Part shown: one piece after another, positions 72-6,444 of the stretch
How positions within the stretch are numbered: position 1 is the stretch's first letter
Layout: each line of letters starts with the position of its first letter
Virus record (IMG/VR): IMGVR_UViG_3300043436_003442
Location: 1-20,463 of that record
Source: a virus
Reading direction: 5' to 3' (one strand)
Length of the DNA: 20,463 bases
The notes under the pieces: model-generated
Seen by the model: only the letters and a program-made list of their open reading frames with translations
Databases searched by the model: none
What the model was told of the DNA's origin: nothing
Made by a program: the position numbers and the translations under genes

Positions 72-1228
72 GTCTGCTTCTCCTGCCACTCAGCATTCTT
101 GCCACTCTTAACCCTGGTTATCTCAGTCCCACTTGCCGAAGCTATCTCCACCGACCAATCATACCAGCCAGGTCGAAGCAATCCAGTAACCGCCTGAGAT
201 ACATCAAATCGAAGAGTCACGTTTCCGCTTCCTGCATCAATTACAGTCCCGCTCTGAATAAATGAATTAACCCCTTGGTCATCTTCATACCTCATCCCAA
301 ATTTACAGGTCGCTGTTGCCGCTACGAATCCGCTCGGCAATGCAACCGTCCAAGAAAACGCCCTACCGTTAGCGTTTAGGTAGTCATCCCCAATAATAAG
401 TGGACTTGCCAATTGACCCGATGCTGTAACCGGAGTCGATACAGTCACCGTCCCGCCTGCCTGGATCAGATCGGTTTGGCTCTTGACGTTGTTCAGGATA
501 TTCCCTGCCTGCGTCCCGCTGTAACCTGTAGAAAGATCAGTAGACCAAGGATTACCAGCCGCACCTGAATCGATCAAAGCCTTACCCGTTGTGCCTGCTG
601 TCGTGTGACCGCTTGTAGGCTCATTCCAAACACCGTTAACGACTTCTGTTACAGCATCGCTTGCTAGCCCCGCCGCTGTAAGCCAATTAGCAGAGAATGC
701 CGCTGAGGTGACAACGCCTGCTTGTAGTGCATGAATATCCGCTGCGATATGACCTGATCCCGCGCCGGTCACCTGAACCGATCGATTGTTGTTGTTGCTT
801 ATCAAGACGTGTTTACCGAAGCTATCGGCAACCCATGTTGCAGTCGTCAATGAGTTCCACACCGCCGTTGGAATTGCGTCAACGCTGGTTTGCGTCGCTC
901 GGCTTCCAATGGTCGCATCGATTCGCGACAATCCAAACGCCGCGCCATCACTAGGATTCGCTGCCGTAAACACAACAGTCTTTTCAACAGGAGATGCACC
1001 CGAAGCGATAAACAAATACGAACCCTCGTCTGCATTTGTATCCGCTTGCGATAGATTGAATCGATATTGACCGTTGCCAAGCTCGCTCGTCGTTCCTGTA
1101 GCTGTCGCTTGCGCACCATTGTCGAGGGCTAGATAAGCAGTCACGCTCGCACCGGTCAAACCTAATCCGGTCGAAGTATTAATCAAAGCGAAGTAAATGT
1201 ATTGATTCGCGACGTTCTTACGGTACAT
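68..1228 (-). CDS. Tail-fibre / baseplate-associated structural protein candidate
   Basis: 386 aa if translation starts at the ATG at 1228, whose A is also the last base of the upstream TGA stop (TGATG). The N-terminal ~100 residues alternate short beta-type segments rich in Thr, Ala, Gly and Ser, with a pattern (ATGTTSELGNGQYRFNLSQA) like the N-terminal domains of phage baseplate-upper or tail-fibre proteins. The middle is low-complexity (Thr/Ser/Ala/Asn-rich), and residues ~270-386 look like an immunoglobulin-like beta domain ending in SGKNAEWQEKQT. No enzymatic motif is visible. Linked tightly to the LamG gene upstream and to a partial gene downstream. A virion surface role is inferred from composition and context. 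Confidence 0.6.
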   Translation of the reverse strand: MYRKNVANQYIYFALINTSTGLGLTGASVTAYLALDNGAQATATGTTSELGNGQYRFNLSQADTNADEGSYLFIASGASPVEKTVVFTAANPSDGAAFGLSRIDATIGSRATQTSVDAIPTAVWNSLTTATWVADSFGKHVLISNNNNRSVQVTGAGSGHIAADIHALQAGVVTSAAFSANWLTAAGLASDAVTEVVNGVWNEPTSGHTTAGTTGKALIDSGAAGNPWSTDLSTGYSGTQAGNILNNVKSQTDLIQAGGTVTVSTPVTASGQLASPLIIGDDYLNANGRAFSWTVALPSGFVAATATCKFGMRYEDDQGVNSFIQSGTVIDAGSGNVTLRFDVSQAVTGLLRPGWYDWSVEIASASGTEITRVKSGKNAEWQEKQT

Positions 1229-2067
1229 CAATAAACTCCGCTTCCGATTAAGTGTTGTCGATTAACCCAATAGCCTTTGAATCCGCCTGCCTGTTCCGTG
1301 TATCTTCGCCTGCGTCGCAACGGCATGTTACCGCGTCCGATCTGCCATAACTGACGCACCTCGCCCGCTGTCAAGGCTCGGTTGTAAATGCGGATGTCGT
1401 CAAGCTGGCCGTTCAGACGATTACTTGCTGCATTCAGCGTAATCGAAGATGTATTTGTTGTCACCGAGAATGAGCCTGCGCCTGTCGTTGTTTGCAAAAC
1501 ACCATCGAAATAAACAGAAAAGTTTCCGGCAGTACCTCTCCCATTGCCGTTATAGCTCAAAGCATAATGATGCCATCCACTCGTCATTACAGCAGTTGTC
1601 AAGTCGGCTCTATTTCTAGACCAGGCATTTGCTGTCCCAAAAAGTATCCCGCGATAATTTCCTGATAAGTCACTCGACACGCCAAATTCCCAGGCTAAAT
1701 TGTCGTCAGATGTAAGCATTAAAAACTTAGTGAAGACATTGGCAAAATCGCGAACATTCGCGAACAACGATACAGAAAATGGGGATGCATTTGCTGCGTA
1801 AATCGTGCTTCCAGAAATCGCAACAAAGTCATTCGACCCATCGAAATCCAACGCAATCTTTCCACCACTGGTGACCCAATCATCGTTGGCCATGTTTGTG
1901 AGAGTGCCCCAGTTCTGACGGCCCGATAGATCCCACAATCGAGTACCACCCATTGCAGGATTAAGCGACGGGCACCACCATCCAGCATCAGGAAACGACC
2001 TCGGAAACATCGCCTCCGATGCCGAGCGAGCGAAACCAGAATGTACCGACGTATTGAGCCAGGTCAC
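1228..2067 (-). CDS. LamG / concanavalin A-like lectin domain virion protein
   Basis: 279 aa, GTG start at 2067 sharing one base with the upstream TAG (TAGTG), with an AAGGTGG SD about 9 nt before it. Residues ~70-245 carry the hallmarks of the LamG-like jelly-roll fold: FDGSNDFVAIS, then SGWHHYALSYNG, FSVYFDGVLQ, and near the end LNGQLDDIRIYNRALTAGEV. In phages such domains are found on tail fibres, capsid decorations and other surface proteins, where they bind glycans or proteins. The C-terminus after the domain is Arg-rich (PLRRRRRYTEQ) and then aromatic. The domain call is from motifs; receptor binding is inference. Confidence 0.85.
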   Translation of the reverse strand: MTWLNTSVHSGFARSASEAMFPRSFPDAGWWCPSLNPAMGGTRLWDLSGRQNWGTLTNMANDDWVTSGGKIALDFDGSNDFVAISGSTIYAANASPFSVSLFANVRDFANVFTKFLMLTSDDNLAWEFGVSSDLSGNYRGILFGTANAWSRNRADLTTAVMTSGWHHYALSYNGNGRGTAGNFSVYFDGVLQTTTGAGSFSVTTNTSSITLNAASNRLNGQLDDIRIYNRALTAGEVRQLWQIGRGNMPLRRRRRYTEQAGGFKGYWVNRQHLIGSGVY

Positions 2068-2597
2068 TACTCAACCACCTTATCAATTAGCGGTACAAGG
2101 ATGACCCGCGAACCGTTGTTCGTTGCCGTTGCTTCGTCTCGGATCGCTTGCCCAAGGTTGTTATCAACGATTGGAGCGACGTAACGACCGATTGGACGCC
2201 AAACAACCGGAGCCTGAATTAGCACCGTATCAGCGTCAGCCGTTGCGACCAACGACGTCACCGCTGGCCCTGCTTGACGTAAATTAGCATCCGAAGTCCC
2301 GAGCGTGTAAGACGCATCCGATCCAGTGACCTTAGCAGGCCACTCAGAGCCATCGCGGGAATTGACTAAGTACAAATCGACGGTATTTCCAACCGCCGGA
2401 GCTGTACCGGTCTCGATAATTAAATACACCGCGTAATCTCGATCCCAATTCTCTGTGAGATCAGCCGACCCACCTTGACGAGCAGCACCGTTAGCAAGAG
2501 CATCAAACGACAGCGTGTGAGTCACACCGCTAGCACCAGCCTCACCCCAAATAATCGCCGTCCCTTGTGAAACCTTAAACAAATCAGGCAACGCCAT
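2067..2597 (-). CDS. Phage structural protein candidate, unknown function
   Basis: 176 aa beginning MALPDLFKVSQGTAIIWGEA; the start overlaps the upstream gene end by 14 nt and has an AAGGAG SD upstream. The sequence is beta-rich, Gly/Ala/Thr/Asp-rich and lacks Cys, typical of tail or decoration proteins. No catalytic motif is seen. It sits directly upstream of the LamG and tail-fibre-like genes and overlaps the 152-aa gene, so it probably belongs to the same virion module. I do not recognise a named family. Confidence 0.6.
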   Translation of the reverse strand: MALPDLFKVSQGTAIIWGEAGASGVTHTLSFDALANGAARQGGSADLTENWDRDYAVYLIIETGTAPAVGNTVDLYLVNSRDGSEWPAKVTGSDASYTLGTSDANLRQAGPAVTSLVATADADTVLIQAPVVWRPIGRYVAPIVDNNLGQAIRDEATATNNGSRVILVPLIDKVVE

Positions 2598-3042
2598 TTT
2601 GAATCATGCTCCTTGCTGATTTAACGTGACCGGGCTCAACATGCGACCAGCCTACCGATTCCGTCCACTTGATTGTGACCCAACGTAGCGACTTGAGCCG
2701 CTCGATTTGGGCTTGAGTTGCAATGCCAAACGATACTAGCCCCTGCATCATGTCGATCGCTGCTTGCTTGTCGAGGTCAGCATTTTGCACCCGACCGCCA
2801 ACGTCATCGATCCAACCAGCAATCGAGATGCAAAGCTTCCTGATCTGTTCGTCGGATGATTGCTGGCCGATGATGATCGGAGCGTAAACAGCCTCCTCAA
2901 TGGCCCACTGTTTAACCTCGACCACCGGAACCAATCGCTTTACCGTGACAGTCAGCACGTTTATCAAGTCCGCCGCTTGTTGGTCGCTTGTGCCTTGGTA
3001 CTGAGTCTTTTTGAGTTCTTCGATCAATGGTTCGTAATTCAC
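2584..3042 (-). CDS. Small phage protein resembling tail-region proteins of unknown function
   Basis: 152 aa with a GTG start overlapping the desaturase-like gene stop by four bases (GTGA). The opening MNYEPLIEELKKTQYQGTSD followed by QQAADLINVLTV resembles a common phage family whose members start with a short helix, an 'aY.G.sD...A..LN' segment and a helical middle; its function is unknown to me. The C-terminal third (SLRWVTIKWTES) looks like an added strand-rich segment. It is the first gene left of the envelope cassette and precedes the structural genes. The family resemblance is from memory of sequence style. Confidence 0.55.
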   Translation of the reverse strand: MNYEPLIEELKKTQYQGTSDQQAADLINVLTVTVKRLVPVVEVKQWAIEEAVYAPIIIGQQSSDEQIRKLCISIAGWIDDVGGRVQNADLDKQAAIDMMQGLVSFGIATQAQIERLKSLRWVTIKWTESVGWSHVEPGHVKSARSMIQNGVA

Positions 3043-3566
3043 GCTCGCGCCTCAATTCTGGTTGTGACGAAAACAACGTACTCGATGTAACGCCAAAAAC
3101 CGATCGCATCAAAAATCGGATTAAGCATCGGACTCATAACGCAGTATCGGATATGATAGGGCGAACGATGATGCTCGGCATGATGCTTGCACGATTGTAG
3201 GATGCCACATCGTTGAGCCATCGATACCAACCAACCGTTTCGCCCCTTCGAGTGCCCCCAAGCATGGATCTGGTTGGCTTGGGACAAGAACAAAAACGTC
3301 AGCCATGCGTCGCGAGTCGCATTGCAGCAAAGGCACGCGCCACAAGCCAACATCGATGGAATGATGGTTGTGTAATTGCGATGCCAATAAGAGCCCTTCA
3401 GGAATGCGTATTGATCCGAATGGTGGAGTTGGTTTGGCCCACCGATGAGCCTGCCGAAAACCGGCGTATCTTGGTCAAGGTACGAATCCTCCCACCAGTG
3501 AAAAACACCGGCAATAAAGTCAGCCGTTAGGAATGATATGATTACGAACAGGATCCACTCAATCAC
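3039..3566 (-). CDS. CarF/Kua (TMEM189, plasmanylethanolamine desaturase)-like membrane lipid desaturase
   Basis: 175 aa from a GTG at 3566 that overlaps the previous stop (GTGA) and lies 9 nt after GGAGG; an upstream TTG at 3575 would abut the SD and is less likely. The protein has an N-terminal membrane segment (IEWILFVIISFLTADFIAG), a second hydrophobic stretch around residues 70-98, and the family-type histidine pattern: FHWWEDSY (H23), PNQLHHSDQ (H48, H49), H62, NQIHAWGHS (H101, H105), KHHAEHHRSPYH (H128, H129, H132, H133, H138). CarF/Kua enzymes introduce the vinyl-ether double bond of plasmalogens, using His-bound di-iron in membranes. Substrate here is unknown; a generic lipid desaturase is the fallback. 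It lies in a cassette of membrane proteins. Confidence 0.82.
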   Translation of the reverse strand: MIEWILFVIISFLTADFIAGVFHWWEDSYLDQDTPVFGRLIGGPNQLHHSDQYAFLKGSYWHRNYTTIIPSMLACGACLCCNATRDAWLTFLFLSQANQIHAWGHSKGRNGWLVSMAQRCGILQSCKHHAEHHRSPYHIRYCVMSPMLNPIFDAIGFWRYIEYVVFVTTRIEARA

Positions 3567-3775
3567 TTGTTGCAACCTCCGAGCAATTTACCGATCTCAG
3601 TTTGCAACGTCTCAATCTTGGCCCAAAGTTTTTCGCGATCTGATCGACATTCCTGCAAATCGCTTCGCGTGGTTTTCTTTTCTTCGACGAACAAGCGAAA
3701 CAAGATTCCGACCGCTGTGCTTAACGCTGCGACCATGCCCGAGCCGATGATGTAAACCAAGCTTTCCTGAGTCAC
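3563..3775 (-). CDS. Single-pass membrane / coiled-coil protein (holin accessory or spanin-like candidate)
   Basis: 70 aa, GTG start at 3775 overlapping the upstream stop (GTGA). Residues ~8-28 (YIIGSGMVAALSTAVGILFR) form a membrane helix, and residues ~31-65 are charged heptad-like sequence (EEKKTTRSDLQECRSDREKL) suggesting a coiled coil. It ends in GGCNK. This layout is seen in phage lysis-cassette proteins such as haemolysin XhlA-like or inner-membrane spanin-like proteins, but no family-specific motif allows a firm call. Confidence 0.55.
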   Translation of the reverse strand: MTQESLVYIIGSGMVAALSTAVGILFRLFVEEKKTTRSDLQECRSDREKLWAKIETLQTEIGKLLGGCNK

Positions 3776-4206
3776 TTTACGAGCCCTTTCGCCTGTTCAA
3801 AAGTGAGATAGCCAACGTGATCCTTGCGATCCGATCCCTTGGAGACTTCAAACCTTGGAGTCACCGGAAACGGATGATCCTCGACAATGCCTACCGACCA
3901 TCCGGCATCCAAGAATTTTTGCATCTCGCACCGCTTCCACTTCTCGCATGGCGGGCAATTCTTGGAGACGAATACCAGAATCTCGATCTTCAATGGCTTG
4001 TCGCTTGGGCTTGGGATCGGCTTGGGATCTTCGATCGGAGCTGGTTGAACTGTTAGAGAATCTCGAACAGTTGCCACCTGTTTAACAAGGTCGCTCGACG
4101 GTATGTCGCATTGAGTTGGATCTGGCTTGGATCCATTGAAGAACCAACCAAGCAAGCAAAGCATTATACAGCAAATCAAAATAGACTCCCTTCGTTCATT
4201 GCTCAT
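3772..4206 (-). CDS. Membrane-anchored thioredoxin-fold candidate with CPPC motif
   Basis: 144 aa, ATG at 4206 overlapping the protease stop (ATGA). The N-terminus (residues 9-23, ILICCIMLCLLGWFF) is a signal anchor or signal peptide. A Pro-rich linker (residues 55-70) leads to a small domain reading KIEILVFVSKNCPPCEKWKR, with C84-Pro-Pro-C87 right after a beta strand as in thioredoxins and glutaredoxins, plus C93. A cis-Pro-like VTPRF follows at ~115. Probably a periplasmic or membrane-facing disulfide oxidoreductase; the coupled papain-like enzyme just upstream could be a client. An earlier in-frame ATG at 4299 lies inside the protease gene and is rejected as the start. Confidence 0.7.
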   Translation of the reverse strand: MSNERRESILICCIMLCLLGWFFNGSKPDPTQCDIPSSDLVKQVATVRDSLTVQPAPIEDPKPIPSPSDKPLKIEILVFVSKNCPPCEKWKRCEMQKFLDAGWSVGIVEDHPFPVTPRFEVSKGSDRKDHVGYLTFEQAKGLVK

Positions 4207-5027
4207 CCCAATGGCCTCGACTGCATCCAAGATACTTTTCGGGGCCCAGGCGTTGAAAGATCCGATACGCCAACGATTGATGTCCATTGATGCTTGCAAA
4301 GAGCATCAATTACGCTTGGTGCAATTTCAGTCCAAGAATCGTTGTGACTGTTTAGCCGCCAAAGGTAGTTCCGGCCCTGTTTGTCTCTGCGTTTGCTGTA
4401 GCCGAGCCATGCCGTAGCATGACCGCCACCGCGACCAAGACCGACCGACTCCAAAACACCGTTGCGACTGTAGAACGAATCGTTCCAAAGCGTTCCGGTA
4501 TGAACCGCACCTACGCCGCTTGCCAAATATCGAAAGATGGCATCATACGAATCGAGCCAAGTATGCGAGCCGATTCGATACGGGAAAGCCTTCATCCTCA
4601 TATCGTCGGTAATGAGCGTCCGGGCGTTGCTAGGGTATGGCGTTAAGTATGGCAAATCCTTTTCGGGAAGCATACCGATCGATGTTGCAACCTTAAGCCC
4701 TGCTTCGATGGTCGATCCCTTGTCAACACCGAGCAAACCTTGGCTCTGTCTTTGGGACTCAAGATACGCAAACAACTGCGACAACTGACGATCAACGCTA
4801 AACGAGCCATGCACCAACGCCCAAACGTACTCGCAAGCATTGGTCAATGAAAATCCTTGGCAGGATCCCATGTTGCCCTGCTTATCATGTCGCATCAGTG
4901 GCCGTGGATCGATCTCATCGGGAGCTGCGAAGTCTCGCATCGTGAAAGCAATTTCGGTCGAGCCTGCCTTGATCGCGTCTCGATTCTCGATGGTTGGATC
5001 GTAGCCTGTGAATTCAAAGTCACTCAC
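4203..5027 (-). CDS. Papain-like (C1-type) cysteine peptidase
   Basis: 274 aa, GTG start at 5027 overlapping the upstream TGA (GTGA), with GGAGG about 6 nt before it. The papain signature is visible in order: oxyanion Gln50 and catalytic Cys56 in KQGNMGSCQGFSLTNACEY, His203 in GRGGGHATAWLGYS, and Asn226 in YLWRLNSHNDSWTE. Residues 1-45 resemble a short N-terminal extension (GYDPTIENRDAIKAG) and no signal peptide is seen. C1-like enzymes cleave peptide bonds; in a phage lysis/structural setting it could cut host envelope proteins or peptidoglycan stems, or process virion proteins. It is coupled to membrane proteins on both sides. Fold assignment is good; target is unknown. Confidence 0.8.
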   Translation of the reverse strand: MSDFEFTGYDPTIENRDAIKAGSTEIAFTMRDFAAPDEIDPRPLMRHDKQGNMGSCQGFSLTNACEYVWALVHGSFSVDRQLSQLFAYLESQRQSQGLLGVDKGSTIEAGLKVATSIGMLPEKDLPYLTPYPSNARTLITDDMRMKAFPYRIGSHTWLDSYDAIFRYLASGVGAVHTGTLWNDSFYSRNGVLESVGLGRGGGHATAWLGYSKRRDKQGRNYLWRLNSHNDSWTEIAPSVIDALCKHQWTSIVGVSDLSTPGPRKVSWMQSRPLG

Positions 5028-5944: not shown

Positions 5945-6259
5945 TTAGTCGTTATCGTCGTCGCTGACCGTGGAATCGAAGGGCTCACCAACCGCAACAT
6001 CCTCCGAAGGATTCTCGACCTTCTGCGATTGCCACCATAGCCACAATCTAAGAGCGATCTGAATCAGCAAAAAGAGCGTAGCCGGATCGATGCCGACTAA
6101 CTCAGGATGCGAACCGAACAAAAGCTTTCCAGCTTCCTCATCGCCGTCGATGGTCTTTGCGACCAAATCGGCCACCGTTGGATCGGATCGACGAGCGATC
6201 CAGATTTCACGAGCCGCTCGCCGAGCCTTTAACCTGTCAGTAAATTTCACGCGATTCAC
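5945..6259 (-). CDS. Small membrane protein of the envelope cassette
   Basis: 104 aa, GTG start at 6259 overlapping the holin-like stop (GTGA). The N-terminal ~30 residues are very basic (RVKFTDRLKARRAAREIW), a helical acidic stretch follows, then one hydrophobic segment (residues ~59-77, ATLFLLIQIALRLWLWW), and an acidic tail ending VSDDDND. Basic head, membrane helix and acidic tail suggest a single-pass protein. No family recognised. Confidence 0.55.
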   Translation of the reverse strand: MNRVKFTDRLKARRAAREIWIARRSDPTVADLVAKTIDGDEEAGKLLFGSHPELVGIDPATLFLLIQIALRLWLWWQSQKVENPSEDVAVGEPFDSTVSDDDND

Positions 6260-6444
6260 TTGGTCACCTCATCAGGCTTAGGCAATGGCCGAACAGAATC
6301 GCCAACGATCCAAGCACCAACAACCCATACGAGCTGCTGAATTTGATCCTCAGTCAATGGGGTCTTGTCCTTGAGAACAACGACGGCAATCGTAGCCGCC
6401 GCCGCCCAAAATCGCTTGCTCTTAACTAAATCACCGATGTTCAT
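6256..6444 (-). CDS. Holin-like small membrane protein
   Basis: 62 aa, ATG at 6444 with AAAGGAG 10 nt upstream. Two hydrophobic segments are separated by a polar turn: FWAAAATIAVVVLKD (residues ~12-26) and QQLVWVVGAWIVGDS (~36-50), with a charged C-terminus PKPDEVTK. The 'GDLVKSKRFW' start followed by two short helices matches the general style of small phage holin families. It is the first gene after a promoter candidate and leads the membrane cassette, fitting a holin, but small size makes the call uncertain. Confidence 0.55.
   Translation of the reverse strand: MNIGDLVKSKRFWAAAATIAVVVLKDKTPLTEDQIQQLVWVVGAWIVGDSVRPLPKPDEVTK

Follow-up and report, generated by a model that had tools for sequence, protein, structure and literature searches.

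A predicted phage lipid desaturase of the PF10520 superfamily on a branch apart from CarF/PEDS1

The window analysed in this study, a stretch of 20,463 nt covering positions 1 to 20,463 of the IMG/VR virus record IMGVR_UViG_3300043436_003442, carries a gene for a predicted membrane lipid desaturase (Table 1). A sequence-only reading had proposed a phage-encoded CarF/Kua (plasmanylethanolamine desaturase-like) enzyme at this position; its coordinates 3039-3566 proved correct, with the frame located on the minus strand, a point absent from that reading, and the plus strand of the same section is broken by stops. The GTG at 3566 was taken as the start codon since it fits this coordinate and shares a GTGA overlap with the stop of the 70-aa gene lying upstream. 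In the same manner, the stop of the desaturase gene overlaps the GTG start of the downstream 152-aa gene as GTGA. Several relatives possess a Met at or beside the position of GTG 3566, and an alternative longer open frame (3575-3039, minus strand) with a TTG start would encode 178 aa. Altogether, the gene was confirmed as real and intact.

Table 1. The desaturase gene and neighbouring genes in the window (coordinates as positions of the window)
Feature	Position	Strand	Remarks
Lipid desaturase (PF10520)	3039..3566, including stop	-	GTG start at 3566; 175 aa
70-aa protein	3563..3775	-	N-terminal hydrophobic stretch, charged tail; resembles a holin or spanin by eye
Thioredoxin-like protein	3772..4299	-	CPPC behind an N-terminal hydrophobic stretch
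Papain-like (C1) protease-like protein	4203..5027	-	PF00112 20.3 bits, just below the cut-off of 20.7
62-aa holin-like protein	6256..6444	-	phrog_9987 holin, E 3.9e-4, weak
152-aa protein	2584..3042	-	No assigned function; downstream of the desaturase in many relatives
176-aa protein	2067..2597	-	No assigned function
LamG/concanavalin-like virion-type protein	1228..2067	-	PF13385 62.2 bits; phrog_8510 virion structural, E 7.1e-11

The genes of the window follow each other in the order holin-like protein, proteins of 104, 126, and 126 aa, papain-like protease, thioredoxin-like protein, 70-aa protein, and desaturase, followed by the 152-aa, 176-aa, LamG, and 387-aa proteins, and this order is largely retained in many relatives. 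The 70-aa protein matched phrog_9829, a family with no assigned function (E 0.002), and weakly the Rz-like spanin family phrog_739 (E 0.095). For the thioredoxin-like protein, a C-terminal domain (residues c. 78-147) was predicted at high pLDDT, with Foldseek matches that include thioredoxins (best E c. 0.001); this CPPC protein was found frequently in relatives of the window phage. The relative of the papain-like protein on contig L034 scored 21.9 bits against PF00112, above the cut-off. The gene had also been described as lying in a lysis-type cassette, which suits the window as far as the nearby holin and papain-like matches go, these being weak or below the cut-off, but does not extend to other phages, in which the desaturase is located beside head, terminase, or portal genes. 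A promoter scan gave five promoter-like sites against 4.5 expected, i.e., no signal above chance, and a terminator scan gave nine terminator-like sites against 5.1 expected.

Comparison of the desaturase with the PF10520 profile (Lipid_desat) yielded 135.9 bits at a cut-off of 26.4, spanning profile positions 2-174 of 175, and the motifs HWWED, HH, QIHAWGH, and KHHAEHH named in the sequence-only reading are all present. According to Werner et al., H96, H121, H122, H187, H191, H215, H218, H219, and D100 are essential in mouse PEDS1, while the exchanges F118A and H131A retain 5.9% and 7.4% activity, respectively. Based on spacing and alignment, the PEDS1 positions 96/100/121/122/187/191/215/218/219 correspond to residues 26/30/51/52/104/108/132/135/136 of the window protein, so that all eight essential histidines (H26, H51, H52, H104, H108, H132, H135, and H136) and the aspartate (D30) are matched. 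Since PEDS1 H96 corresponds to residue 26, the window protein is c. 70 N-terminal residues shorter than PEDS1. The two further positions differ, F118 being N48 and H131 being G61. A weak match to the FA_hydroxylase profile (20.0 bits) stayed under the cut-off of 31, the classical acyl-lipid desaturase profile PF00487 and the PHROG families gave no match for the desaturase at E ≤1e-1, and sequence searches of the PDB with it returned no useful match.

The residues were compared in an alignment of 77 sequences, in which the window protein was joined by 74 from viral contigs and two from phage records. The eight histidines and D100 were retained in 69 of the 70 rows covering all 11 positions, the exception being the viral row L136 with N in place of H215, and catalytic residues persisted in sequences down to c. 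50% identity and lower. Among the cellular relatives used for the phylogeny, L055 lacked H121. Position 118 was N in 75 of 76 rows, the only F belonging to the jumbo phage LR756511, and position 131 was H in just four of 75 rows, namely LR756511 and the window-group rows L022, L028, and L029 (L027 has Y there). In the latter three, and in L027 with Y for H, the short block AFLKHSYWQRNSLTII replaces AFLKGSYWHRNYTTII as one unit, and this joint difference suggests recombination within the desaturase gene.

The AlphaFold2 model of the desaturase (pLDDT 94.7, pTM 0.89) revealed helices at residues 2-32, 63-83, and 85-97 besides shorter ones; CarF/PEDS1 is characterised by four helices that span the membrane. 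Its best PDB match was the fatty-acid hydroxylase Scs7p, with a weak Foldseek E of 0.5; VIA superposed 143 residues at 4.5 A with Z 6.9, a value in the range that the tool calls common. The model thus weakly resembles Scs7p, an enzyme of a related class, and together with the weak FA_hydroxylase match this makes hydroxylation instead of desaturation possible. Among predicted viral structures, the best match was a lipid desaturase of Harvfovirus (E 1.3e-7, TM 0.69 by query).

Relatives of the desaturase were detected on 74 IMG/VR contigs, 47 by protein search, 25 by alignment search, and two through use of a second alignment; the set was not de-replicated and some pairs share an identical protein (L117/L118, L152/L162). 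Since relatives occur at so many viral loci, the frame is no chance reading. With respect to selection, the median dN/dS was 0.089 and the maximum 0.18 (190 pairs among 20 copies of the window group), so the gene is under purifying selection. That the gene is phage-encoded, as had been proposed, was borne out by phage replication genes in the window, which also codes for DnaB, a replication initiation protein, a DNA methyltransferase, DnaN, a RecT-like protein, exonuclease VIII, and RusA, and by terminase and portal genes in two longer relatives. One of these (G004, 41 kb) harbors terminase, portal, head and protease, neck, and minor tail genes, the other (G009, 60 kb) terminase, portal, head protease, and minor tail genes. 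A further contig (G012, 59,720 bp) revealed a terminal overlap of 21 bp located within the desaturase gene, suggestive of a genome that is circular and complete.

Hosts were sought via genomic copies and via DnaN. Copies at least 60% identical to the provirus form L154 were found in six of 241 Pirellulaceae genomes, and matches at E ≤1e-10 in 19 of 241; G319, G392, G400, and G410 each contain two copies at the former threshold. One copy in G319 is 99% identical to L154, and this IMG/VR record was probably cut from G319. In that genome, the one scanned with Pfam, genes for HNH, large terminase, and portal proteins come after the desaturase, and by eye the surroundings of the desaturase in G392 resemble those in G319. 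Two genomes, G392 and G375, showed additional PF10520 matches, which at 184.5 and 192.6 bits, respectively, fall in the score range of the rows with F118. The DnaN of the window scored best against Planctomycetota (220 bits, 79 genomes), compared to 112.6 bits in Pseudomonadota and 119.3 bits in Bacteroidota (80 genomes each), the three phyla sampled; it matched in 72 of the 79 Planctomycetota genomes, most closely at 37% identity in a Pirellulaceae genome. Based on the relatives in Pirellulaceae genomes and on the DnaN comparison, the hosts are probably Pirellulaceae, and the host phylum Planctomycetota is well supported.

For the phylogeny, cellular relatives were drawn from 21 named genome contigs and 294 Planctomycetota genomes, 30 of which showed PF10520 matches. 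A tree of 60 rows, which omitted L090, L115, and L116 (other frame taken, or partial), revealed a branch of 19 rows (100/99), all with F118; besides LR756511, which has both residues, it holds 18 planctomycete rows, and H131 is present in 15 of these. The window is among the 41 rows outside this branch, in which position 118 is N (39 rows) or L (two rows), and H at 131 is absent from all cellular rows among them. In a second tree of 64 rows, which omitted 14 rows and took 18 of 27 newly added viral sequences, the window belongs to a clade of 26 rows (100/97), 25 of which are viral, the other coming from a Pirellulaceae MAG. Ten of the 47 viral loci from the protein search entered one or other tree. 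By eye, the frames flanking the Pirellulaceae MAG copy (L051, on contig G013) are not phage-like, so not every copy in the clade of the window is phage-borne. Overall, the trees indicate at least two branches of bacterial PF10520 proteins.

The window protein has in common with CarF/TMEM189 (PEDS1) the PF10520 domain, the eight essential histidines, D100, and the motif spacing, but differs in N for F118 and G for H131, and it is located outside the branch with the PEDS1 residues in trees that were built without any named CarF or TMEM189 sequence. The literature consulted in this study comprised PMC8960569, PMC9131029, PMC12456178, PMC9127768, PMC11868695, PMC11480375, PMC8228385, PMC10299390, and PMC8156234. 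A review states that H131 (H113 of CarF) is absent from plant and alphaproteobacterial homologues, which do not complement carF, and that true CarF among bacteria is reported only from myxobacteria and Leptospira. Based on the profile score and the metal-site residues, we assign the protein to the PF10520 superfamily; the residues at 118 and 131 and the grouping in the tree speak against CarF/PEDS1, and on sequence grounds the window desaturase represents a branch of the superfamily distinct from CarF/PEDS1. Thus, the family and the di-iron histidine layout of the original proposal stood, whereas the specific assignment as a plasmalogen desaturase is not supported by the residues or the tree. 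For the protection against oxidative or light stress that had also been raised, nothing in the analysis provided support. More generally, a PF10520 match by itself is no warrant for naming a protein a plasmalogen desaturase.

We know of no characterised member of the PF10520 branch of the window; substrate and reaction are therefore deduced from the superfamily as a whole. The explanation that we favor, and hold to be somewhat better than even, is that the phage supplies a di-iron lipid desaturase of its own to remodel the membrane of the host, probably at a late stage, with the position of the bond left unspecified. Judged by its family, the enzyme probably introduces a double bond into host membrane lipids. 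In the window phage, this small membrane di-iron desaturase, encoded between lysis-like and virion genes, would be made late in infection, as its gene position suggests, and would consume O2 and host reductant. The double bond would be placed in a chain of a membrane glycerolipid, close to the head group, whether the lipid is an acyl lipid, an alkyl ether, or another; a vinyl ether is possible, though not favored. Such a bond might change how the membrane packs or how sensitive it is to oxidation during assembly or lysis, which would benefit the phage.

The alternative closest to the original proposal is a true CarF/PEDS1 function, by which plasmalogens would be made in the infected cell, and we regard it as unlikely. 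It would account equally for the family and the metal site, and H131 does occur in the window relatives L022, L028, and L029. A Black Sea MAG study reports homologues of genes for ether and membrane-spanning lipids in Planctomycetota. At least 18 of the 294 planctomycete genomes contain a sequence with F118, so that the host phylum may make plasmalogens as well. Yet the near-invariant N at position 118, the G at 131 in the window, the support for the branch from which the window is excluded, and the failure of homologues lacking H131 to complement carF, as stated in the review cited, all argue against it. The planctomycete sequences themselves (L088, L089, and L091-L106) are 18 with F118, 15 of which also have H131, and because of these residues some planctomycetes may make plasmalogens aerobically. 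A different phage gene fits the enzyme more closely: the 595 kb uncultured phage LR756511 (L050, 5989-6447) encodes a PF10520-type protein with both F118 and H131, which groups, on a long branch, with a planctomycete F-type sequence (97/84 in the 60-row tree and 91/77 in the 64-row tree). Judged by these residues, it would be a stronger candidate than the window gene for a plasmalogen desaturase encoded by a phage.

Considering the genes around the desaturase in other phages, the upstream genes turned out to be varied. In L024, the neighbours seen in the window give way to a subtilase (PF00082, 155.1 bits) and a different small hydrophobic protein, with the same frames in L025, and subtilase motifs were also found in L139 and L141. 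The provirus forms L184 and L158 carry a trypsin-like protein (PF13365) upstream, while in L033, L038, L136, and L149 a thioredoxin-like gene is located directly upstream, and no protease motif was found in the stretch of up to 3.5 kb upstream that was searched in these four. The ends of the thioredoxin-like gene and the desaturase gene overlap in L033, L038, and L149, though their surroundings differ. Because of these varied upstream genes, the desaturase is to be seen as occurring in several contexts, near late-type genes wherever the context is readable, and the variation between phages argues against one fixed partnership. Three unrelated proteases are thus found upstream of the desaturase in separate phage groups, namely the subtilase (L024, 7480-8409), the trypsin-like protein (L184, 8376-9716), and the papain-like protein of the window (4203-5027), which may be phage lysis or processing enzymes.

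Conversely, 24 of 79 loci with the papain-like gene hold the desaturase; among the 34 with at least 2.6 kb downstream it is present in 12 and absent from 22. A search with the thioredoxin-like gene, in which 80 of 106 matches were kept, gave a similar picture: among the 51 loci whose downstream sequence reaches 1.5 kb or more, the desaturase is present in 21 and absent from 30. Since both genes are frequent without the desaturase, neither depends on it. In L207 and L209, the operon is present, but the desaturase is lacking precisely at the junction of the small hydrophobic gene with the 152-aa gene. Presence of the desaturase is thus optional, and we describe the gene as an optional, translationally coupled cassette of Planctomycetota phages. 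It provides natural phage pairs that differ in the presence of the gene, which makes its benefit to the phage testable. A fixed protease-desaturase unit was dropped as an explanation, the papain-like gene being common without the desaturase as well, and the thioredoxin-like protein was demoted as a dedicated redox donor for the corresponding reason.

These counts also bear on a FAD4-like reaction, in which a trans double bond would be set in an acyl chain, close to the carboxyl end, with the thioredoxin-like protein helping as PRXQ helps FAD4. Plant FAD4, a 16:1 delta-3-trans desaturase, is described in the literature as a PF10520 superfamily member with the eight-histidine motif also seen in the window, assisted by peroxiredoxin Q. 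In the window group, a single gene separates the thioredoxin-like gene from the desaturase downstream of it, while in L033, L038, and L149 the two are direct neighbours and their ends overlap. Nevertheless, the majority of thioredoxin-like loci with sufficient downstream sequence lack the desaturase, and several phages with the desaturase have no thioredoxin-like gene nearby. Moreover, F118, which the literature gives as common to animal PEDS1 and plant FAD4, is N48 in the window, the tree having been built without plant sequences; on balance we rate this reaction slightly below a true plasmalogen desaturase. A membrane change that blocks infection by competing phages, making the desaturase a lysogen exclusion or fitness gene (moron), would agree with the optional cassette and with the duplicate copies in four of the Pirellulaceae genomes, but where the context is readable the gene has lysis-like, virion, or terminase genes around or next to it and does not form a separate unit, which renders this explanation improbable. 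That the gene is a degenerate or neutral hitch-hiker, as its lack in many sister phages might imply, is very improbable in view of the low dN/dS and the catalytic residues retained to c. 50% identity and beyond.

Returning to the remodelling of host membranes by a phage desaturase, other viral enzymes may be compared. Protein UIS25202.1 of Erythrobacter phage vB_EliS-L02, deposited as a hypothetical protein, is 33.5% identical to the window protein over 90% of the query and has all eight histidines, D100, and N at position 118 as in the window. In contrast to the window, its host is a different one and its neighbours are PhoH and portal genes, and in the 64-row tree it groups with the viral rows L160 and L161 (100/99). 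The words 'desaturase' and 'lipid' are both absent from the main text of the vB_EliS-L02 paper. The Harvfovirus lipid desaturase has a predicted fold like that of the window protein at 24% identity and belongs to a giant virus of a eukaryotic host. Cyanophage-encoded lipid desaturases were reportedly described by Roitman et al. in 2018 and are said to be of the classical acyl-lipid type, PF00487. They are likewise phage-borne auxiliary genes, but their family and hosts differ from those of the window gene. In principle, phage lipid desaturases are hence already known from cyanophages, which may serve as a precedent for the window gene by analogy. For a phage enzyme of the CarF/TMEM189/PF10520 type, no description was found in the open-access literature searched.

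Beyond the favored explanation, we tentatively put forward, at lower confidence, that planctomycete phages possess their own branch of the superfamily with an undescribed reaction used for late re-tailoring of lipids, and that phages may have taken up such genes repeatedly, possibly including a real plasmalogen-maker. Repeated uptake is conceivable because the unrelated jumbo phage LR756511 has all PEDS1-type residues tested. If true, phages of an abundant and, with respect to its lipids, unusual phylum would edit the membrane lipids of their hosts, using an enzyme type so far described from animals, plants, myxobacteria, and a small number of other bacteria.

With regard to cellular relatives, inspection by eye of the frames around nine cellular N-type desaturase genes gave no pathway clue. 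In Emticicia aquatica (L063, 5305-7469), the cellular desaturase is flanked by fibronectin-like and coiled-coil-like frames, as judged by eye, and may be located in a mobile element.
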